A stretch of 64,000 bases of DNA from Ditibartonella apis (GTDB lineage: Bacteria > Pseudomonadota > Alphaproteobacteria > Rhizobiales > Rhizobiaceae). Made by a program: the position numbers and the translations under genes. The stretch covers positions 310,001 to 374,000 of the forward strand of contig NZ_LXYU01000002.1 in assembly GCF_001952075.1 (NCBI RefSeq), written 5' to 3'. Shown here piece by piece: positions 48,867 through 61,568 of this stretch (positions are counted from its first letter, which is position 1; each line of letters opens with the position of its first letter). The notes beneath the pieces are model-generated. The model was not told the DNA's origin, did no database searches, and saw nothing but the letters and a program-made list of their open reading frames with translations.

Positions 48867-49729
48867 CTGATAACTATATTTTCCGTTGCCTTTCAAGATA
48901 TCTATACCGGAATATAATTCTGAAGATAAAAATGAAAATCCGACGAGTAAGAGATTATTTACGGCAAAAAATGTTAAATTGCGCCGGCACAAAGCGGATA
49001 GTTCATACTCATCTTTGACAAAAAATATTTAGTGTCAAGTCGCCGGAAACTCGACAATTATTTATAAATTTTGCGTACATCATTGTTTACGAAACTCGTG
49101 ACAATGAAAATAACCTATTAATTGCAGTGTGCCGAAAATGATTCAAACAATAAAGTTACAATGGATCATTCTTGAAGGAGTCCGTCTGTCGGCTCGTTAA
49201 ACAGCATTCTTATCAAACAGCTATTATGGAAACTGAAACTGCAATCTTAGGAATTATTGCTTTTTCTTTTTAAAGAACAGTTCGGCAGACGTAGCATCCA
49301 TTTAATAAGTTTTACATAAATACCTGACAATTTCATCTTTCAATTTCAAAATTGCTGCGCGTTTTCCAAGTGATATTTCCGACCATGTAAAATAGGCAAT
49401 TTGGCTCATTATTTTCCGATCAGGTGCAATAATAAACCATCCCGACAAACCGGTTATGCCGGATATCAAAATGATATCACGCGCCGAATTCTTATACCTA
49501 TAGATATTTATCAAGTACTATGAAAAATGATTTATATGTATTTAAATGTTGTTTGAAATTAAACCGTATGTTGTTTAATAATAATTTACATGTATATAAT
49601 GAAACACTTCTTTATTCCTTAATTACCTTGTAAAATAGGGGGAAGGAAGTTTTCGTTTTACTGCAAAGATCAACCCGTAATTCCATGATTTTGAACGCAA
49701 AATCACAAAATTCGAAGGGGCCGACGGTA
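48867..49729. other. Long AT-rich region before the autotransporter
   Basis: More than 800 bases. The only longer frame is on the minus strand at 49302-49514 (70 codons, MINIYRYKNSARDIILISG...); it has no ribosome binding site or recognised family and may be a gene remnant. Position 49715-49721 (GAAGGGG) is the ribosome binding site of the autotransporter. The length suggests a complex promoter. Confidence 0.35.
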
Positions 49730-52700
49730 ATGTCGAAGTTAAAAAAACAATACAAAAAATTTTGCGATCAGGGTCTAGGATATCGAATTTTTCTTGCCAC
49801 AAAATCGGGATTTAAACGCAAACTTTCCACACTTGCTGCCTCTTCTGCCATCTTTGCAGGAAGCTTGATAAGCAATGTCTATGCTGAAAATTATTGTAAA
49901 ATGCAAGGCGGCTGGACTTCCGGTACGATTGCAACCAACAATAGCTGTACAGTAACGAAGGAAAACTTCAATCCGGTAGATAGCGACAATTATTGGGGCG
50001 CTGCTCTTGCTTCCGGATCCGGTGAAGCACTGAAAATCAACGGCAATCTTTCGGATATCAACAACGGAAAATCCGGTATTAGTCAACTTGACGATCTGGG
50101 AAATTACGATCCAGCCACTAAAGGCCAGACCAAATTCGTTTTAGGTGGAACGCAAGCTGTTCGTGTGACTGATAACGCCGGTCAATCTTATACGGTCAAT
50201 GTGTATCAAGACAGTTCTTTTACTGTTTCTGATTGGGGTAACGAAAAAGTTCTGGTAACGGAATCGGTCGGAGACCAGCAATATGTAAGTTCAGGATTTG
50301 GAAAAGCTGAAAACGGCGGTCACATTGATGTAAAGTTTGATGATTTCAAGGGAAACAACAAGTACGGTGACGATAAGACCGTATATCTTGCTTTGAAAGA
50401 CTCGAATTTGACATGGGCAGACGGTTCCGGCAGTGTCGTAGAATGGCATTCGAAGAATTCGTTTGAATCACGAGCTTATTACCTCCCGGATGATGACATT
50501 ATCAACCGGATTAATGTCCCGGAATTTCCGCACAGTTTTACCGATTACAAAGGAGAAATGCGGATCATTAATTCTATCGATGATTTGAAAGCTTACAACA
50601 GAGAACTTATAGCTGCACTCCAAAGCAAGGATTATCCCGATTTTAAAACCCAACAGGCTTATAATGATGCTTTTAACAAAGCCAAACCGAAATCCATAGA
50701 AAAAGCCATACAAGGTCCGGGAAGCGATTATCCTAAAAGTGATGAAATATTTAAGCCCACGGGTAATACGCGCGCAATGTATGCCAGTAATGGCGGTAAG
50801 ATAATTGTCAAATCTGGTGGCCAGATCGATACCGAGTTTGACCAAGGGGAAATGGCAGGTACACTCGTCGCAGAAGGCGGGAGCATTGTCGAGGTCGAGT
50901 CTGGTGCCATTGTCTCGTCACGACGAAATTCCACAATTATCCTCGGTAAGGATAATGAAGTTTCCAAAGCTCATACTTTCGGTACCAATAACGGTGTGGT
51001 CAATTCGGGCTTCAGAGAATCCCGTATACATGACACCACACAAGACAGTCAGGAATTTTCTTATGGCACTGCTGTCGAAGCGTTTTATGGTGGAACTATT
51101 GAGAATAACGGCATCATTAATGTAGCAGGCAATCGCGGAGAAGAAACCCCCTTTGCTTATAGTAACGGTTTTTATCTGTATAAAGTCGGCACTGGAACAA
51201 ACAATGGTATTATAAACATCGGCGTCAACAATGATCCCCTGAACGGTCGATATGTCGGGGTCGCCATCGAAAGCAACTATTCAAAATTTACGAATAGCGA
51301 AACCGGAGTTATTTATATCGGACGGGCTGCACAATATGATACAATAACGCCAGAAGAAACGGCTGATACAAGCAATAGTAATAATGCCGAATTTTATGGT
51401 ATCAGGGCATATGACAAAGCTGAAGCTATAAATAACGGAAAAATCATCATCGGTTCAAAAATGCAAAATGCTTCAGCTATGGCTGCCGATGTTCCGACAG
51501 ATCCCGGCCAACAAGCGATTAATTTAAAACTGATAAATAACGGAACCATCATCATCAATGGTGCTGTCAACAACGGTTCCCAGTTAAATAGTGCCCGTAA
51601 CTTCGGTATGAAAACGATTAATAACGGCTTGGATAACGAAGTTACCAATAATGGCCTTATCGAACTTAATGGATATAACGGTGTTGGCGTCTATGTTCTC
51701 GCGACATCCGGTAATTCAATTAACGCCAATGATGCCTTGGCCACGCTTACCAAAAACAGCGTCATAAAAATTTCCAGCCCCACCCAGAACGGCCCGTTGG
51801 TACGAAATTACGGCGTCTGGGTGGAAGGCCGCCCCAACGACGTGTATTATGCTCGCGCCAAAATTGATGGAACGATAGAACTGGCAGGCGACGGCGCGGT
51901 CGGTGTCTATGTCAAGGATGGCGGCCAAGCGGATGTCACGGAACATGCCAATCCGCAATTTGTAAGCGGCAAACAACAGATCGGTTTTTATGTCTACGGT
52001 GCGCAAAGTAAAATTGTAAACAGCACAAAAGCAATGAATGTAACGACAGCTGCTTCAAATCTTTTCCGTATTGACGGTGGCGCAAGCTTTTTGGGACAAG
52101 GAGAAGAGTTAACAGCTTCCGGTGAAAATAGCGTCATTCTGGAAGGGGCAGGAGGAGCTTCCGATACGGCTAGTCAAATAATTACCAAGGACGCAAAGCT
52201 CACGGTTACCGGAAAAGGTGCGGCGGCTGTATTAATCAATGGCGGTGCTTATGGAGAAATTAGCGAAAAAGGTAACACAGAACGCCAGATTTATCTTTCA
52301 GGAGAAGGTGCCATCGGTGGGATTGTTGATGGTCGTTATCACCGGATCGATGCGACCTATACCGAAGACGTAGACCTGAACACAAAGTTGGTTAATTACG
52401 CCAAAATCAACACCGATTCACCAAATGTAACAGGATTCATTGCGCGCAATAGTGGTCTTCTTGTCAATTATGGCGTTATCACCATGACAAACACTGAGAA
52501 TGCCACCGGCATCCATGTCATTGAGGGGGGACGTTTGGAAAATCATGGTGATATTACTGTCTCGAACGGTGTCGGACTGCATATAGAGGGCCTTTCGGGC
52601 ACCGACACGCGCGCGAATGTTGCAAATGCCAGCACTATAACAGTAAATGATGGAAAAGCCGGCATTTATCTGGAAAAGAATGCTTTTTTAAATGCGACCG

Positions 52701-55474
52701 GAAGTCAGGGTAAGATTAAAGTTTCGGGAAGTGCCCATGGCGTTTTGCTGAATTCGGATGCAAAAGGAATAGTTCTCGGCGTTGATGAAATAACTGTTTC
52801 GGCTGGCGGAAATGGTAATGGTGTAGAAAATAACATCGTTTCAAATGACCCTGAATTCGCTGCCGAAATCGCTTTTAAACAGGCTACAATCAATGTCGAG
52901 GGTAGCGGTTCCGGTATTCGTACTGCCGTTGGTCTTCTTACGCATTATCTGGATGAGAATAATGTGTCGCAAGTGTCTAACGTCACAATCAATGTTGGCG
53001 CCAACGGTGTCGGTTATGATTTAAGAAATGCAAGTCTATCCGATCCGGTTCTTCGGTCGAATGCCGTAATCGGGCCGGCTTATACAATCAATGCATCCGA
53101 TCATGCGATTGGTTTGCGTACCAATACCAGCGGCGAAGTCACCAACCAGTCAACTGTTTTGTTAAAAGAAGGTGCTAGCGGCACTGCTTGGCTTGCCGGT
53201 ACAGCTTCCAAAGTACAAAATGACGGCGTCCTTGACTCGAAGAGTGCCAACGGTCTTTTGGTCGATCTCGCAAATAGGCCGACCAACGCTTCTTCCGGAA
53301 CAACATTCATTAATACGGGGCAATTAACTGCCCAATCATCCACTTCTGTTGCAGTACGGGGAAGTGAACTTGGCGACACCTTCATTTTTACAAACAGCAC
53401 GTCAAACATACGTGGACTTCTTAAAGCTGGCAAAGGATCGGATAGCCTCACCTGGTCGGGTGGACGTTGGGAAGGCGGTTTCGATATGGGAGAAGGAGAC
53501 AATGACAATGCAACGATTTCCGGCCCTGTCGACACAAGCAACTTCAGCCATGCACTGGCCGGTCAAGGCAATAACAAGCAACTGACACTTCAAACCACAA
53601 CCATAACCGGTGGTTCATTCAATCAGGATGATTTAACCAAAGGCGTAAATTTTGGCGCGGATTGGAATAAAATTGCTCTTACCGACGGCACCCGTTTAAC
53701 TTTGACAGATAATGTTTTTACAAACGGCGATCTTGATTTTGAAATCGGCAAGCAAAGTACATTGATCGTCGACCACACCAAGTATCGCGGTACGGACGAA
53801 GCACAAACGCTTTATAGCGAGGCAGATATCACTCGAAAAGCCGGAACTTTGGCACTGACAAATAACGGTCTCATTGATATGGGGAACAAAACACCCGACG
53901 GCATTACCGACAAACTGGTCATCAAAGGCAATTACCATAGTGATAATGGCTCTATCCGGCTAAATAGCAGTCTTGGAAACGATGGAGCTCCCTCCGATAT
54001 GGTTGTTATTGATGGGGGAACTGTTTCCGGTACGACGACCCTTTTCATCGACAATCTCTCCGATAATACGAAAAATGCAATTACAAAATATGAAGGAATA
54101 AAAGTCGTCGACGCCAGAAATGGCGCTCTTACAAACAACGATAGTTTCGTCATCGGCTCAGGATGGGGACGTGGCTACCGGCGCGACGACGGTGTGATGG
54201 CTGTTGCCGGATCCGATACTGCCTATGCCTATACACTTGCCCGTGGTCCGCTAAAGAAAGCGCGCGATCACGACGCCTATAACGACAACGAATACGCATA
54301 CGATTGGTATCTTAGAAGCGGACAAGATAATTCAAATAATTTCGACGACGATAACAACAATACCGGTGGTAACAATGGCGACGTCGGTAACAACAGCAAC
54401 GGCTCGCATGGCGGGGGAAGCAATCAAGGTGGTACAGGTACAGACCGACCGGAACAAGCGAAACCTTATTATGGCCCGTCAGTGCCGCTTTATGAAGCTT
54501 ATCCTCAAGTACTCACAAGTCTCAATCGTTTGTCTACCTTGCAGCAACGAGTTGGTAACCGCTTTTGGGCCGATGGAACCGATAATACGGTAAATGAAGT
54601 TCATCTTTCTGATCAAGCCTCGACGCTTGTTGAACACAACGGCTTTTGGGGCCGCATGGAAGGGAGCACAGGCAAAGTAACCCCCTCACGCTCGCTGACC
54701 GATGAAAATTACGGTCTTGATCTATGGCGCATGCAAAGCGGGATTGATGGTGCACTCGTCGAAAATGCCAACGGAATCCTGATTGGATCTTTAAGCGGTC
54801 ATTTCGGTCGTGCGGAAGCATCTGTGCGCTCCGATGACGGGCATGGCAAAGTCGAGGCGAACGGATATGGTATAGGGGCTGCAGCGACATGGTATGGCTT
54901 CAATGGCAGCTATGTCGATTTACAATCGCAAGCCACCTGGTATGAAACCGATTTCAATTCCAAGAATTTTACCCGTTCGGATACTAAAAACGAAAACGGT
55001 TTTGGCTACGCTCTTTCGGCAGAGGCCGGTCATCGGTTAAAATTGACAGAAACATGGGATATAACACCGCAAATCCAACTTTCTTATTCGTCGATAGATT
55101 TTGACAGTTTTCGTGATGGCTTGAATACAAAAGTGTCTCTGAAAGATGGTGACAGTCTGGAAGGCCGTGCCGGCCTCGCTTTCAGCAGAGATAAAACGTG
55201 GATATCCGATAGCGGAGACCGGCGTCGCGCACTCCTATATGGCATAGGCAATCTTTATTACGAATTTCTCGATGGAACGAAAGTGGATGTTTCCGGCACT
55301 TCGTTTCGGAATGAAAATGAAGATTTTCAAGCCGGACTTGGATTGGGTGGCAGTTATAATTGGAATAATGATAATTGGTCACTCTATGGCGAAACAAATA
55401 TACGCGGTGCTTTCAAAAATATCAGCGATAATTACAGCTTTGGCGGCACAGTAGGTTTGAGAATTAAGTTCTGA
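49730..55474 (+). CDS. Large type V autotransporter (beta-helix passenger, C-terminal barrel)
   Basis: A 1914-residue surface protein. A long signal region (to about residue 53) combines a charged stretch (KLKKQYKKF, KRKL) with a hydrophobic core ending NVYAEN. Residues about 55-1500 are a passenger rich in Gly, Asn, Val and Ile with many NNGxIxI-type strands, typical of a beta-helix. A Gly/Asn/Ser linker (about 1535-1565) leads to the autotransporter barrel (about 1640-1914), which ends in GGTVGLRIKF with the terminal Phe needed for membrane insertion. ATG at 49730 has GAAGGGG upstream; an ATG at 49685 is in frame. It may serve adhesion, which is inference. Confidence 0.9.
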   Translation: MSKLKKQYKKFCDQGLGYRIFLATKSGFKRKLSTLAASSAIFAGSLISNVYAENYCKMQGGWTSGTIATNNSCTVTKENFNPVDSDNYWGAALASGSGEALKINGNLSDINNGKSGISQLDDLGNYDPATKGQTKFVLGGTQAVRVTDNAGQSYTVNVYQDSSFTVSDWGNEKVLVTESVGDQQYVSSGFGKAENGGHIDVKFDDFKGNNKYGDDKTVYLALKDSNLTWADGSGSVVEWHSKNSFESRAYYLPDDDIINRINVPEFPHSFTDYKGEMRIINSIDDLKAYNRELIAALQSKDYPDFKTQQAYNDAFNKAKPKSIEKAIQGPGSDYPKSDEIFKPTGNTRAMYASNGGKIIVKSGGQIDTEFDQGEMAGTLVAEGGSIVEVESGAIVSSRRNSTIILGKDNEVSKAHTFGTNNGVVNSGFRESRIHDTTQDSQEFSYGTAVEAFYGGTIENNGIINVAGNRGEETPFAYSNGFYLYKVGTGTNNGIINIGVNNDPLNGRYVGVAIESNYSKFTNSETGVIYIGRAAQYDTITPEETADTSNSNNAEFYGIRAYDKAEAINNGKIIIGSKMQNASAMAADVPTDPGQQAINLKLINNGTIIINGAVNNGSQLNSARNFGMKTINNGLDNEVTNNGLIELNGYNGVGVYVLATSGNSINANDALATLTKNSVIKISSPTQNGPLVRNYGVWVEGRPNDVYYARAKIDGTIELAGDGAVGVYVKDGGQADVTEHANPQFVSGKQQIGFYVYGAQSKIVNSTKAMNVTTAASNLFRIDGGASFLGQGEELTASGENSVILEGAGGASDTASQIITKDAKLTVTGKGAAAVLINGGAYGEISEKGNTERQIYLSGEGAIGGIVDGRYHRIDATYTEDVDLNTKLVNYAKINTDSPNVTGFIARNSGLLVNYGVITMTNTENATGIHVIEGGRLENHGDITVSNGVGLHIEGLSGTDTRANVANASTITVNDGKAGIYLEKNAFLNATGSQGKIKVSGSAHGVLLNSDAKGIVLGVDEITVSAGGNGNGVENNIVSNDPEFAAEIAFKQATINVEGSGSGIRTAVGLLTHYLDENNVSQVSNVTINVGANGVGYDLRNASLSDPVLRSNAVIGPAYTINASDHAIGLRTNTSGEVTNQSTVLLKEGASGTAWLAGTASKVQNDGVLDSKSANGLLVDLANRPTNASSGTTFINTGQLTAQSSTSVAVRGSELGDTFIFTNSTSNIRGLLKAGKGSDSLTWSGGRWEGGFDMGEGDNDNATISGPVDTSNFSHALAGQGNNKQLTLQTTTITGGSFNQDDLTKGVNFGADWNKIALTDGTRLTLTDNVFTNGDLDFEIGKQSTLIVDHTKYRGTDEAQTLYSEADITRKAGTLALTNNGLIDMGNKTPDGITDKLVIKGNYHSDNGSIRLNSSLGNDGAPSDMVVIDGGTVSGTTTLFIDNLSDNTKNAITKYEGIKVVDARNGALTNNDSFVIGSGWGRGYRRDDGVMAVAGSDTAYAYTLARGPLKKARDHDAYNDNEYAYDWYLRSGQDNSNNFDDDNNNTGGNNGDVGNNSNGSHGGGSNQGGTGTDRPEQAKPYYGPSVPLYEAYPQVLTSLNRLSTLQQRVGNRFWADGTDNTVNEVHLSDQASTLVEHNGFWGRMEGSTGKVTPSRSLTDENYGLDLWRMQSGIDGALVENANGILIGSLSGHFGRAEASVRSDDGHGKVEANGYGIGAAATWYGFNGSYVDLQSQATWYETDFNSKNFTRSDTKNENGFGYALSAEAGHRLKLTETWDITPQIQLSYSSIDFDSFRDGLNTKVSLKDGDSLEGRAGLAFSRDKTWISDSGDRRRALLYGIGNLYYEFLDGTKVDVSGTSFRNENEDFQAGLGLGGSYNWNNDNWSLYGETNIRGAFKNISDNYSFGGTVGLRIKF

Positions 55475-56525: not shown

Positions 56526-57872
56526 ATGTCAAAACTTCATAAAACCGAATTGTTAAGTCCTGCGGGCACATTGAAATCTATGCGCTACGCTTTCGCCTAT
56601 GGTGCGGATGCGGTTTATGCAGGCCAGCCCCGCTACAGTTTGCGGGTACGCAATAATGAATTCAATCATGAAGAAAATTTGAAGATAGGCATTGACGAAG
56701 CCCATTCCGAGGGCAAAAAATTCTATGTTGTCGTCAACATTGCCCCCCACAACAGCAAGCTTAAAAGCTTTGTGAGCGAATTAAAACCTGTTATCGACAT
56801 GAAACCCGATGCTCTCATCATGTCCGATCCGGGCTTGATTATGATGGTGCGGGAAAATTTTCCCGATGTGGATATTCACCTTTCGGTACAATCGAATGCG
56901 GTGAATTGGGCAACGGTCAAGTTCTGGAAAAGCATGGGATTAACACGCGTCATTCTCTCAAGGGAATTGTCGCTGAAAGAAATCGAAGAAATCCGTGAAA
57001 ATGTTCCCGACATAGAGCTGGAAGTCTTTGTTCATGGTGCGTTATGCATGGCCTATTCAGGGCGTTGCCTTCTTTCGGGCTATATCAACCACCGCGACGC
57101 CAATCAGGGAACGTGCACGAATGCCTGCCGCTGGAAATATGGTGTCGAAGAAGGCGTCGAAAATGAACTTGGCGAAATTGTCAAAGTTGAAGAGACGGTA
57201 AGCGGGGAAATTCAACCTGATCTTGGTGAAGGGCCAACCACCGACGAGGTATTTGTGCTTCATGAAGCAAATCGGCCGGAAGCCGAAATGACCGCGTTTG
57301 AAGACGAGCATGGTACATATATCATGAATTCGAAAGACCTTCGCGCTGTCCAATATGTCGAAAAACTGATCAATATCGGTGTCAATTCGTTAAAAATCGA
57401 AGGGCGCACGAAATCGCATTATTATGTTGCCCGAACCGCACAGGTTTATCGCAAGGCAATAGATGATGCTCTGGCCGGCCGTCCATTTGACGACAATTTG
57501 ATGGTGGTTCTGGAATCCCTTGCCCACCGCGGTTATACTGAAGGCTTTTTGCAACGCCATAAACATAAAGAATACCAGAATTATGCAACCGGCTCCTCGC
57601 TTCCCGGCCGCCAGCAATTTGTTGGCGAATTTACCGGAAAACGCGTGAACGGGCTTGCCGAAGTCGCTGTCAAAAACCGCTTTGAATTGAATGACAAAGT
57701 GGAAATGATGACGCCGGATGGCAATATCAATTTTACAATAAAATCACTGAAAAACAAAAAGAACGAAGACATTACTGTAGCACCCGGTGACGGACATATT
57801 GTCTACATTCCCATCCCTGAAGATGTGCAATTGAATTACGCTTTATTGATGCGGTATGTGGCGAACATTTGA
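56526..57872 (+). CDS. trhP: U32-family protein TrhP/YegQ-like (tRNA U34 hydroxylation)
   Basis: A 448-residue protein of the peptidase U32 group. It opens LLSPAGTLKSMRYAFAYGADAVYAG, cited by LLSPAGTL and YGADAVYAG, and has the Cys-rich core (FVHGALCMAYSGRCLLSGY, then QGTCTNACRWKY) that binds an iron-sulfur cluster. In E. coli YegQ was renamed TrhP because it hydroxylates U34 of tRNAs using prephenate. The earlier protease label is likely wrong. The retron begins right after its stop. Confidence 0.88.
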   Translation: MSKLHKTELLSPAGTLKSMRYAFAYGADAVYAGQPRYSLRVRNNEFNHEENLKIGIDEAHSEGKKFYVVVNIAPHNSKLKSFVSELKPVIDMKPDALIMSDPGLIMMVRENFPDVDIHLSVQSNAVNWATVKFWKSMGLTRVILSRELSLKEIEEIRENVPDIELEVFVHGALCMAYSGRCLLSGYINHRDANQGTCTNACRWKYGVEEGVENELGEIVKVEETVSGEIQPDLGEGPTTDEVFVLHEANRPEAEMTAFEDEHGTYIMNSKDLRAVQYVEKLINIGVNSLKIEGRTKSHYYVARTAQVYRKAIDDALAGRPFDDNLMVVLESLAHRGYTEGFLQRHKHKEYQNYATGSSLPGRQQFVGEFTGKRVNGLAEVAVKNRFELNDKVEMMTPDGNINFTIKSLKNKKNEDITVAPGDGHIVYIPIPEDVQLNYALLMRYVANI

Positions 57873-57897
57873 TAAATTTTATTGACATACATAAAAT
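57869..57897 (+). promoter_or_regulatory. Candidate promoter of the retron
   Basis: TTGATA (57869-57874) and TAAAAT (57892-57897) are separated by 17 bases and would start transcription about a dozen bases before the a1 repeat of the retron RNA. It overlaps the trhP stop codon. A better -35 (TTGACA, 57882) has no well-spaced -10. Confidence 0.4.
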
Positions 57898-57916
57898 TCG
57901 ATAATAGCCGTAGATG

Positions 57917-58042
57917 ATAAACTCACAGGTAGAAGTGTTATCTTGTTTCGAGATATATTTGTTAATATCGACAGCTTTGCTTAGCTGGTCTACATGTGTT
58001 ACTAAGTAGGTAAGCTTAGTCTAAGAGTACCTGTGAGTTTAT
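57917..58042 (+). ncRNA. Retron non-coding RNA (msr-msd)
   Basis: ATAAACTCACAGGTA (57917-57931) and TACCTGTGAGTTTAT (58028-58042) form a perfect 15-bp inverted repeat, the a1/a2 stem that frames retron RNAs. Inside, TATCTTG-TTT-CGAGATA (about 57940-57956) gives a 7-bp msr-type hairpin with one G-U pair. The 3' half can form the msd stem: GCTTA (57979-57983) with TAAGC (58011-58015) and CTAC (57990-57993) with GTAG (58006-58009). The G at 57932, just after a1, is a candidate branching guanosine. The reverse transcriptase starts 15 bases downstream. Extent of msd DNA cannot be fixed without sequencing. Confidence 0.82.
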
Positions 58043-58057
58043 TTTTTTGAACGTTAA

Positions 58058-59899
58058 ATGACTGAACCGAAAAACCTAGAGAAACTGAAAAGTATAACAA
58101 AAAGGGAAGAGCTGGCTGATTTGTTAGGCCTTAGTCGTCGTCGACTGTTTTGTACTTTATATATGGAGCCTATGAGCAGTAAGTATAATACCTTTTCAAT
58201 TCCCAAAAAATCCGGTTCTGATTTACGTATAATTAAGGCGCCTAATTCACACCTAAAATTCATTCAATGGCGTCTAGCAAAGTATCTTTCCGAATGCTTA
58301 GAGGAGATAAAGAAAAAAGAGAAATTTCCCCATTTATCCTTTGCATTTCAAAAAAAACTATCGATCAAAGATAATGCTTTGAAACATATCAATAAGAGAT
58401 GGGTTTTAAATCTTGATATTTCTGATTTTTTTTCATCTATTAGTTTTAATCGCGTTAACAGATTTTTTTTAAAAAATAAATTTTTTCAGTTAAATGACGA
58501 GATTGCAACTACTATTGCGCAGATTGCATGCGACGAACAAGCGCTTCCTCAGGGAAGTCCGTGTTCTCCTATAATCTCGGAATTTATAACGCAATCGCTA
58601 GATGTTAGATTGCTAAAACTCGCAAAACAATATCATTTAACCTATTCGCGTTATGCCGATGATATCACTTTATCGACTAATCAAAAAGTTTTTCCAAGAG
58701 AGGTGGCCTATCCGGATTCTTCTGCTGAAAATGGATGGCAAGTTTCAGAGACGTTAAGAAGTATTATTCAGCGATCTGGATTTAAGATAAATGAAGAAAA
58801 AACCCGGATGCAGAAAAACTGCGTGCGCCAAGTAGCTACCGGCCTTGTGATTAATAAAAAACCCAATGTCGCTGATAATTATTATCGGACTGTGCGATCA
58901 ATGTGTCATCACGTTTTTGAAAAAGGGGCTTACTATCGATCTCCTGAAGACAAAGACAACCCTACCTGTGATTTGAATCCTCTAGCTGGCAAGTTAAATT
59001 TTATACACGACATTAAAAAAAATTCTGACGAAACAAATTCATCAAGTCTAAGGGGCGGAAATAATCTGACTCTCTCCGGTTTTGATGGCTTATACAAAAA
59101 GTTCTTATTTTATAGGTTGTTTCTATGTTTAAATAAACCAATGATTGTTACCGAAGGTAAGACTGATCCGATATATCTTCGCTGTGCCATAAAACACGGT
59201 AACAAGATAAAAAATGCCTATGGAAAGACAGTTGGTAGATATATAACTCAATCGATTTTATTTTTTTCGAGAGAAAGATCTTACGCGGAAGCATTTAATT
59301 TTAAAGAAGGTGGAAGTAATAATCTATTAGATATCATTAAGCTATACAAAGAATACCTTCACTCTAGCAAAAAACGTCAAATTCAAAGTAGACCGTGTGC
59401 TTTTCCAGTTATACTTCTTTTCGATAACGATGACGGTATAAAAACTACTTCGAGTTATGTCAAAAAAAATTTCGATATTATACTAACTACTGAAACTACA
59501 GACGATTTTTATTATTTATTTGATAATTTGTATATAGTAAAAACTGTTGAGAAAAAATATAACACTGAATATGAAAAAAATGATGATAAAAATCATCAAT
59601 ATGATAATATAAAAAATAAAGTTAAAAATAAAAAAAACTTAATTAAAAATTCTGAATCTTGTATTGAAGATTGTTTCTTTAAAAAAACTCTTGAAAAAAC
59701 ACTACACGGAAAGAAATTTACTAAAAATAATAACGGACACTCAAATACAGAATACAGCAAAGATAAATTCGCGACAGAAATAGTTAGCGCTGAGCCTTGG
59801 TCCATCGACTTTAGTGGCTTTGACGGATTATTGGATCGCATCAGAAAAGTTATAGAAGATTATAAAAAATTACATAACCATCCTACAATAAATAGGTAA
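58058..59899 (+). CDS. Retron reverse transcriptase fused to a Toprim nuclease (Retron-Eco2/Ec67 type)
   Basis: A 613-residue protein. Residues about 20-350 are a retron reverse transcriptase: NALKH (106-110, the NAxxH motif), LDISDFF (119-125), QGSPCSP (165-171), the catalytic YADD (199-202) and VATGL (259-263, the VTG motif region). Residues about 360-490 are a Toprim domain with Glu366 in TEGKTD and Asp456/Asp458 in LLFDNDDG. A Lys/Asn-rich stretch (about 495-565) precedes a short conserved tail. This is the order of Retron-Eco2 (Ec67), an anti-phage system where the Toprim part is the toxic nuclease. It is much more AT-rich than neighbours, has no ribosome binding site, and lies between trhP and guaA. 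Confidence 0.93.
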   Translation: MTEPKNLEKLKSITKREELADLLGLSRRRLFCTLYMEPMSSKYNTFSIPKKSGSDLRIIKAPNSHLKFIQWRLAKYLSECLEEIKKKEKFPHLSFAFQKKLSIKDNALKHINKRWVLNLDISDFFSSISFNRVNRFFLKNKFFQLNDEIATTIAQIACDEQALPQGSPCSPIISEFITQSLDVRLLKLAKQYHLTYSRYADDITLSTNQKVFPREVAYPDSSAENGWQVSETLRSIIQRSGFKINEEKTRMQKNCVRQVATGLVINKKPNVADNYYRTVRSMCHHVFEKGAYYRSPEDKDNPTCDLNPLAGKLNFIHDIKKNSDETNSSSLRGGNNLTLSGFDGLYKKFLFYRLFLCLNKPMIVTEGKTDPIYLRCAIKHGNKIKNAYGKTVGRYITQSILFFSRERSYAEAFNFKEGGSNNLLDIIKLYKEYLHSSKKRQIQSRPCAFPVILLFDNDDGIKTTSSYVKKNFDIILTTETTDDFYYLFDNLYIVKTVEKKYNTEYEKNDDKNHQYDNIKNKVKNKKNLIKNSESCIEDCFFKKTLEKTLHGKKFTKNNNGHSNTEYSKDKFATEIVSAEPWSIDFSGFDGLLDRIRKVIEDYKKLHNHPTINR

Positions 59900-60008
59900 T
59901 TTTTATATCATTTATATTACTTTATATTCATTTTTTATTTAATAATAAATATAAATCACATGCATTCCTTAATGCCATGTCCAATATCTCGTATTCCCGC
60001 GTTTTATT

Positions 60009-61568
60009 TTATTCCCACTCGATTGTTCCCGGTGGTTTTGACGTGATATCATAGACGACGCGATTGATACCGCGCACCTCGTTAATAATGCGGTTTGCAG
60101 CTTGTGCCAGAAAATCCATATCGTAATGATAAAAATCGGCTGTCATTCCGTCGACCGAGGTAACAGCTCTTAACGCGCAAACATATTCATATGTTCGCCC
60201 GTCACCCATGACACCTACCGTTTGTACCGGAAGGAGAACAGCAAAAGCTTGCCAGATTTCATCATAAAGGCCTGCTTTGCGAATTTCATCAAGATAAACG
60301 GCATCCGCCTCACGCAAAATATTAAGTTTCTCTCTCGTCACTCCACCGGGGCAACGAATAGCAAGGCCGGGACCGGGGAAAGGATGACGTCCGATAAATT
60401 TTTCCGGCAAGCCAAGCTCACGTCCTAACGCGCGAACTTCATCTTTGAAAAGTTCGCGTAACGGTTCAACCAGTTTCATATTCATGCGTTCCGGCAAACC
60501 GCCAACATTGTGATGGCTTTTGATGGTAACCGAAGGACCGCCTGAGAATGACACACTCTCAATCACATCCGGATAAAGTGTACCTTGTGCTAAAAATTCC
60601 GCTCCACCAAGTTTCTTGGCTTCTTTTTCAAAAACCTCGATAAACAGGCGGCCGATAATCTTGCGTTTCTTTTCGGGGTCACTCACCCCTTCAAGGGCAT
60701 TGATAAAAAGATCGGATGCGTCAACATGAACAAGCGGAATATTATAGGTCTCGCGAAACATCGAGACGACCTCTTCAGCTTCATTTTTGCGCATCAAACC
60801 ATGATCGACAAAAATGCATGTCAACTGATTGCCAATGGCTTCATGAATAAGCACCGCCGCAACGGACGAATCAACCCCGCCTGAAAGGCCGCAGATAACG
60901 CGCCCCTTCCCCACTTGCCGGCGGATGGCAGAAATTGCCTGTTCACGATAGGTCTTCATCGACCAGTCGCCTTTAATACCGGCGATATTGTGGACGAAAT
61001 TCTGCAAAAGACGGGCGCCATCCAAAGTATGAACAACTTCCGGATGGAATTGCACGGCATAAAAGTGGCGTTTTTCATCCGAAATTGCAGCAAAAGGCGC
61101 ACCTTTCGAGGTACCGATGACCTTGAAGCCTTCCGGCAAAGCGGTGACCCTGTCACCATGGCTCATCCAAACCTGATGATGGGTTCCTTTTTTCCATATG
61201 CCTTGAAAGAGAGCACTATCTGCTTCAACGGTGAGATCTGCGCGCCCGAACTCGCGTTCATGCCCTGCTTCGACTTTGCCGCCAAGTTGCGCGCACATTG
61301 TCTGTTCGCCATAACAGATACCAAGAACAGGAATCCCTGCATCGAATATTTCTTGGGGTGCTCTAGGCGAGCCTATATCAACGGTTGAATGAGGAGAACC
61401 GGAGAGAATAACTGCTTTCGGCTTGATACGCTTGAAAGCTTCTGCAGCAGACTGGAACGGTACGATTTCGGAATAGACACCGGCTTCACGCACACGGCGT
61501 GCGATAAGCTGGGTTACTTGCGAACCGAAATCTATAATCAGAATTGTGTCAGGATGTATCGTGCTCAT
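60009..61568 (-). CDS. guaA: GMP synthase (glutamine-hydrolysing)
   Basis: A 519-residue enzyme that converts XMP to GMP with glutamine and ATP. The N-terminal amidotransferase has the catalytic Cys85 in [12 protein letters not shown]; the synthase domain has the ATP loop [12 protein letters not shown]; the C-terminus ends [13 protein letters not shown]. Length is normal. The 3' end is a well-known target of island integrases. Here it faces the retron. It is last in NfeD/rsmB/mtnN/guaA on this strand. Confidence 0.98.

Follow-up and report, generated by a model that had tools for sequence, protein, structure and literature searches.

A chromosomal RT-Toprim retron of the Ec67 (Eco2) family between trhP and guaA in Ditibartonella apis

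Is a gene for a reverse transcriptase (RT) fused to a Toprim domain, lying directly behind an inverted repeat in the alphaproteobacterium Ditibartonella apis, a retron of the kind typified by Retron-Eco2 (Ec67) of Escherichia coli, and how far might the Eco2 mechanism extend to it? The locus lies in a 64,000-nucleotide (nt) stretch of contig NZ_LXYU01000002.1 (positions 310,001 to 374,000), referred to here as the window, in whose own numbering all coordinates are given unless otherwise stated. For this locus we obtained the gene, its family and motifs, an RNA structure with covariation, a predicted fold, and evidence of an insertion, the corresponding site being empty in relatives. We put the probability that it is a retron of the Ec67/Eco2 family (RT-Toprim, PADLOC type I-C) with an Eco2-like mechanism at roughly 85%.

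With this locus, a retron family of solved structure gains a divergent member that lies on a chromosome; taken with its relatives, the locus also provides a working covariance model for msr-msd RNAs of the Ec67 type. It further marks what looks like a defence-gene hot spot, through which we came upon a possibly new family of repeat-bearing RTs.

An RT-Toprim protein of a curated family

The open reading frame (ORF) of 613 codons carries every motif that a preliminary description of the locus had listed: NALKH (residues 106–110, the NAxxH motif), YADD (199–202) and, in the VTG region, VATG (259–262) in the RT part, followed by TEGKTD (365–370) and DNDDG (456–460) in the Toprim part. The NCBIfam profile NF038237 is covered from position 1 to 572 of 572 at 590.2 bits, against a family cut-off of 450 bits, and RT and Toprim are joined in a single protein of this curated family. 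Comparison with retron profiles and with the Ec67 RT, which the same description had proposed, gave RT-Toprim_I-C as the best of the PADLOC RT-Toprim models (627 bits, E 5.5e-189) and Eco2 as the top match in the PDB (1.7e-89). The PADLOC models RT-TIR XII and RT-Protease XI, which likewise combine a retron RT with a C-terminal effector but differ from Toprim in the effector domain, scored 312–320 bits, and models for defence-associated RTs (DRTs) and group II RTs scored far lower than the RT-Toprim models. Structure prediction followed by structural alignment suggests the same overall fold as Eco2, with 36% identity over the alignment. The proposed kinship with Eco2/Ec67 is borne out by these matches, and equally by the RT clade and the window-free RNA match described below; the window retron is an ordinary further member of the known Ec67 (Eco2) family.

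A paired and covarying retron RNA

The perfect 15-bp inverted repeat reported ahead of the RT gene is indeed there: arms a1 and a2 (Table 1) are complementary at 15 of 15 positions, with 96 nt between them. The RNA from 57905 to 58057 folds at −43.8 kcal/mol, whereas shuffled sequences average −31.2 (z −3.7) and none of 200 folded as well. A scan of the 300 nt upstream of the gene for paired arms with the junctions "A/G ... T" scored 26.0, a value reached neither by 1000 dinucleotide shuffles (maximum 25.0) nor by 630 other 300-nt stretches from both strands of the window (maximum 20.5). Protein and RNA are thus both present, and the inverted repeat is beyond chance.

The same RNA frame—paired arms, a1 ending in A and followed by G, and GAG/T before a2—was recognized by script in 21 of 23 relatives; the alignment excluded L063, whose arms are farther apart and whose start the script misplaced, and L064, where the 5' part of the gene is missing. 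Across the resulting 22 RNAs, window included, the invariant columns include A14, G15, A16 and GAGT, 93.7% of cells are paired, and 20 of 21 pairs show two-sided changes. Neither of the last two values was reached in 500 shuffles; the count of further pair types was reached by two of the 500, and sliding the pairing partners lowered pairing to 30–43%. Because the script chose the a1 and a2 ends by maximizing pairing and by requiring the A/G and T junctions, helix 1 and these junction letters are biased in favour of the pattern. Helix 2, the msr hairpin, and the GAG had no part in that choice, and helix 2 is paired in 94.8% of cells across the 22 loci, with two-sided changes in all seven of its pairs.

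A stronger test than this covariation is provided by a covariance model, R1, built from the RNAs of the 21 relatives with the window excluded. Its sole match in the 64-kb window spans 57918–58041 (52.8 bits, E 1.6e-10), which supplies the covariance-model prediction envisaged at the outset; lack of a paired RNA had been named as an outcome that would speak against a retron, and the RNA is both present and covarying. Applied to 49 of the 80 relatives that we found on viral contigs, R1 also marked an RNA next to the RT in 45 loci. Of the four without a hit, L095, L103 and L104 have no more than 27 bases upstream, and L108 counts as a true miss; two additional weak matches were antisense to true ones. 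The remaining 31 viral-contig loci, used without a family scan, were among 58 control loci, mostly other RTs, which produced one weak match (19.5 bits). An Rfam scan of 57000–60500 matched no retron family, and the single weak match, to snoR13 (25.9 bits, E 0.81; gathering score 60), was taken as chance. In L063, an RT-Toprim relative from genome G931, the candidate a1 and a2 arms start about 219 nt apart, which would give it an msd far longer than those of the other loci.

Table 1. Features of the retron and its insertion site (window coordinates)
Feature	Position	Strand	Basis
RT-Toprim fusion protein, 613 aa	58058..59899	+	NF038237, RT-Toprim_I-C, Eco2 chains in PDB
RT domain, about residues 1–357, with NALKH, YADD, VATG	58058..59128	+	RVT_1 at 48–252; structural alignment to retron RTs over about 3–357
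Toprim domain with E366, D370, D456, D458, E537, K568	59135..59899	+	Alignment to Eco2 E374/D378/D460/D462/E515/K546
K/N-rich insertion in Toprim, residues 501–530	59558..59647	+	46 residues versus 12–17 in 34 other rows (alignment A4); predicted local distance difference test (pLDDT) below 50
a1 arm of retron RNA	57917..57931	+	15/15 complementary to a2; two-sided changes across the 22 loci
Predicted branching guanosine (2',5' priming G), directly 3' of a1	57932	+	A/G junction invariant in 22 aligned RNAs; matches rG15 of Eco2 (accessible part of PMC12405507)
msr stem-loop, 7 pairs, loop UUU	57939..57955	+	Fold; 7/7 pairs with two-sided changes, 22 loci
msd template, right end 58027 (conserved GAG/T junction), start nominal	57960..58027	+	GAG before a2 T in 22/22 aligned RNAs
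a2 arm of retron RNA	58028..58042	+	Pairing with a1; covariation; covariance-model match
Promoter-like TTGATA-17-TAAAAT (weak, no evidence alone)	57869..57897	+	10/12 consensus matches
Inserted segment, approximate extent, missing in five relatives; trhP (U32 peptidase-like) ends 57872, guaA stop 60009 (− strand)	57860..59957		blastn of flanks

Phylogeny and distribution

In a tree of 43 RT domains, from which L047, L062, L063 and L064 had been excluded beforehand, a branch with 98/98 support separates all 20 RT-Toprims from the 23 other RTs; the RT-Toprim group recurs in 99% of 200 bootstrap trees. A position outside the retrons had been named as evidence against the identification, and the window RT instead groups with 19 other RT-Toprims. 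It sits on a long end branch (1.04, with L045 at 1.17) and has no supported position inside the group.

RT-Toprims above the family cut-off are found in 1 of 71 genomes of the genus; samples at the level of family, order and class gave 7 of 297, 6 of 397 and 6 of 385 (two of these last with an internal stop). Each count includes the window's own genome, and the samples may overlap. A contig scan with the window protein as single query recovered one relative only; its patterns lay in variable stretches. Proteins annotated as "retron Ec67 family" are encoded on alphaproteobacterial plasmids of Sinorhizobium meliloti GR4 (pRmeGR4b; WP_015241553.1), Rhizobium indicum (WP_138389855.1) and Sphingomonas sp. 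AP4-R1 (WP_171747265.1), and a further locus from this class, in Henriciella algicola (L001), comes from an unannotated collection. All four share the two-part layout and RNA signature of the window, their proteins being about 32–42% identical to the window protein. Since few genomes exceed the cut-off and annotated plasmid members exist, RT-Toprim retrons are rare but known in Alphaproteobacteria. The preliminary description placed the locus in a different class of bacteria from that of Eco2; the surprise it implied does not stand, three plasmids of this class already carrying annotated members. The accessible part of one review states that retrons have been characterized experimentally in Alphaproteobacteria, with the type unnamed there (PMC8867640); in the titles and abstract openings of open-licence literature we found nothing on an alphaproteobacterial RT-Toprim.

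A chromosomal slot between trhP and guaA

The window retron differs from Eco2 in its setting, a chromosomal slot flanked by two core genes, trhP and guaA. This trhP was found in 10 of the 61 genus genomes searched (71 in total). Five of these (G345, G351, G348, G315 and G282) have an empty slot, with 125–160 nt between the trhP match and guaA, and here the blastn match of the flanks jumps from window position 57858–57859 to 59958–60009; in the window genome the two stop codons are 2136 nt apart and the retron occupies the interval. The slot of G303 (2022 nt) holds another RT, whose best PADLOC model is RT_UG17; that of G302 (6121 nt) holds a PDC-S18 gene; and that of G334 (9459 nt) holds an AAA gene (PDC-S06) and a 1280-residue ORF resembling, by eye, the SIR2 gene of G304. 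In G304 itself a Dsr1-like SIR2 gene, GajB and GajA (cut by the locus end) follow trhP, and guaA is absent within 13.7 kb; we infer that these genes occupy the same slot. An ORF named transporter-like by eye is shared by G302, G304 and G334. Five of the ten sites are empty, one is filled by the retron and four by other genes matching PADLOC models; in this genus, the space between trhP and guaA thus has the look of a hot spot for defence genes.

Inspection of the window ORFs by eye revealed no integrase beside the retron, and integration at a transfer RNA (tRNA) site is not seen, because the 64-kb window contains no tRNA. Judged from the sequences, the insertion altered the C-terminus of trhP: at 57858–57872 the window encodes MRYVANI, where four empty sites have MRYV-stop and G282 has MRYA-stop. 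Just upstream of the slot lies a surface-protein-like ORF of 1929 residues (49685–55474) with, by eye, a repetitive passenger and an autotransporter-like end. Among outside DNA, the best matches seen were guaA of Sinorhizobium (71%) and secA of Rhizobium (73%); a search for the 16S gene of the window's genome found no match.

Comparison with Eco2 and proposed mechanism

Eco2 (PDB 9i2f, 9lm3, 9s1f) has the same order as the window, one RNA and then one RT-Toprim protein. The RNAs agree in the a1/a2 arms, the priming G after a1 and the single short msr hairpin; the hairpin loop is UUU in the window versus AAU in Eco2, and the 96 nt between the window arms compare with about 104 in Eco2 (rG15–rU51 plus 67 msd bases, in the paper's numbering). 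Both proteins have YADD, NAxxH, xTG and F46, the last kept in 35 of 35 aligned rows, and the histidine that stacks on the loop is H284 in the window (H in 24 of 35 rows). Both also share the Toprim active-site set of E, D, DxD, E and Lys, which is complete in the window protein: five of its six residues (E366, D370, D456, D458, E537, K568) are invariant in the 35 rows, and the D458 column holds D in 32 and E in 3. The Eco2 Toprim residues named in the accessible part of PMC12405507 correspond to window E366, D370, D456, D458 and E537. The same part calls the catalytic lysine K562, a number that falls on Asp in PDB sequence 9i2f by a count in the printed alignment; all 35 rows do share a lysine, which is K568 in the window and K546 in Eco2.

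By analogy with Eco2, the window RNA (57917 to about 58042) would be transcribed and its a1 and a2 arms would pair, whereupon the RT would prime complementary DNA (cDNA) at the 2'-OH of G57932 and copy leftwards from 58027 to yield branched multicopy single-stranded DNA (msDNA). RT, msDNA and the fused Toprim would assemble into a single complex that keeps the Toprim nuclease inactive. On phage infection the msDNA would be damaged or captured—DenB, a phage nuclease, apparently does this in Eco2—freeing the Toprim active site to cleave RNA, such that phage and cell would be stopped together. We infer msDNA synthesis, autoinhibition, RNase activity, trigger and phage defence of the window retron from this parallel. 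For Eco2 itself, the accessible part of PMC12405507 describes defence against phage and a self-inhibited RT-msDNA-Toprim complex whose msDNA is attacked on infection, releasing the Toprim RNase. Structural papers cited in the accessible part of PMC12956279 give tRNA as the RNA that Toprim cleaves.

Competing explanations

Several observations weigh against an Eco2-like mechanism. The trimer-loop residues D331/R332/Y333 of Eco2, of which R332 is required for defence, have no counterpart in the window protein when it is aligned to Eco2. The metal-B ligand S513 is replaced by C535 (eight of 35 rows have S in this column). About 30 extra K/N-rich residues (501–530), AT-rich, of low complexity and in frame, could disturb the Toprim domain. 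A promoter scan gives no support: the region has eight sites, whereas shuffled sequences average 11.5. The predicted cDNA folds weakly (z −1.1 and −1.2), and the strong msd hairpin sought in it was not found. This last point does not set the window apart, because the predicted cDNA of 14 of 21 relatives folds no better by the same test, and it was dropped as a sign of decay or novelty. As to the loop, a trimer in which msr bridges neighbouring RTs is, in the literature examined, known for Eco2 only; R/K-Y appears in the corresponding region in 10 of 35 rows and the full DRY in L087 alone (by eye, in a gap-rich part of the alignment), which suggests that an Eco2-type trimer loop is not universal in the family.

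Because the window protein lacks that loop and has a basic 30-residue Toprim insertion found in no compared relative (L001, L042, L044 and L045 among them), the retron may have kept the chemistry of Eco2 while assembling and sensing phage differently, as one module of a trhP-guaA defence slot in which RT-based and other systems replace one another. We consider this proposal tentative and on balance unlikely.

It is improbable that the retron has decayed, its frame intact but its activity lost, for instance through the AT-rich insertion. The insertion is absent from all 34 other rows and has a GC content of 24%, and the long end branch would fit, but L045 has a longer one. Moreover, the open frame is full-length, the RT motifs, the invariant Toprim residues and the paired RNA are all kept, and the insertion falls in a low-confidence stretch of the model, as expected of a loop. 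Equally small is the chance that the retron serves a purpose other than phage defence, be it control of plasmids or gene transfer or persistence as a selfish toxin-antitoxin-like element: the patchy occurrence in the genus and the several plasmid-borne relatives would suit such a role, whereas Eco2 defends against phage (accessible part of PMC12405507) and the genes that fill this slot in other genomes match defence models. A non-retron RT (DRT, group II-like or abortive infection (Abi)) beside a chance inverted repeat would account for RVT_1, which is common to all these RT kinds, yet is refuted at the sequence level by RT-Toprim scores far above those of DRT and group II models, the supported RT-Toprim clade, the RNA covariation and the window-free RNA match, leaving it a negligible probability.

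A repeat-bearing RT family with a member in the same slot

The RT that fills the trhP-guaA slot of G303 (locus L048, 2112–3431 in locus numbering) is UG17/UG4-like, its match to RT_UG17 scoring 128 bits, and is preceded by two identical 99-nt repeats (repeat region 1594–2063). Of ten loci examined, seven (L048, L151, L153, L154, L155, L157 and L160) have direct repeats ahead of the RT. They are 99–134 nt long with a period of 328–392 nt, and copy 2 ends 43–59 nt before the matched RT start. The loci without a repeat pair are L156, with only 143 nt upstream, L158, a partial match with no repeat, and L159, with one copy. Such repeats were found in 0 of 23 other RT loci, where the best score was 14 against 99–132.

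Within one locus the best-matching segments of the copies differ by 0–1 base, whereas between six loci copy 2 is 39–56% identical, L153/L154 (87%) excepted. As the copies are near-identical within a locus and divergent between loci, the pattern points to concerted evolution. A diversity-generating retroelement reading is disfavoured by the 0–1 mismatches between copies. Four of six loci (L048, L153, L154, L155) have, by eye, a promoter-like CTTGAC ... CAAAAACC box between the copies.

A search with the L151 protein found no relatives on viral contigs. DRT10 (UG17), as described in the accessible part of PMC12632851, comes with a SLATT gene and in one case also with a non-coding RNA of 137 nt; between trhP and the RT of G303 there is no ORF of at least 120 residues. 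Titles and abstract openings in the literature yielded no description of such a repeat-bearing system, and the family may represent an undescribed RT system. In L159 the single repeat copy (1324–1441) stands beside an RT 61% identical to that of L153, the upstream copy and spacer being absent, as if the second copy had been lost by recombination or never gained.
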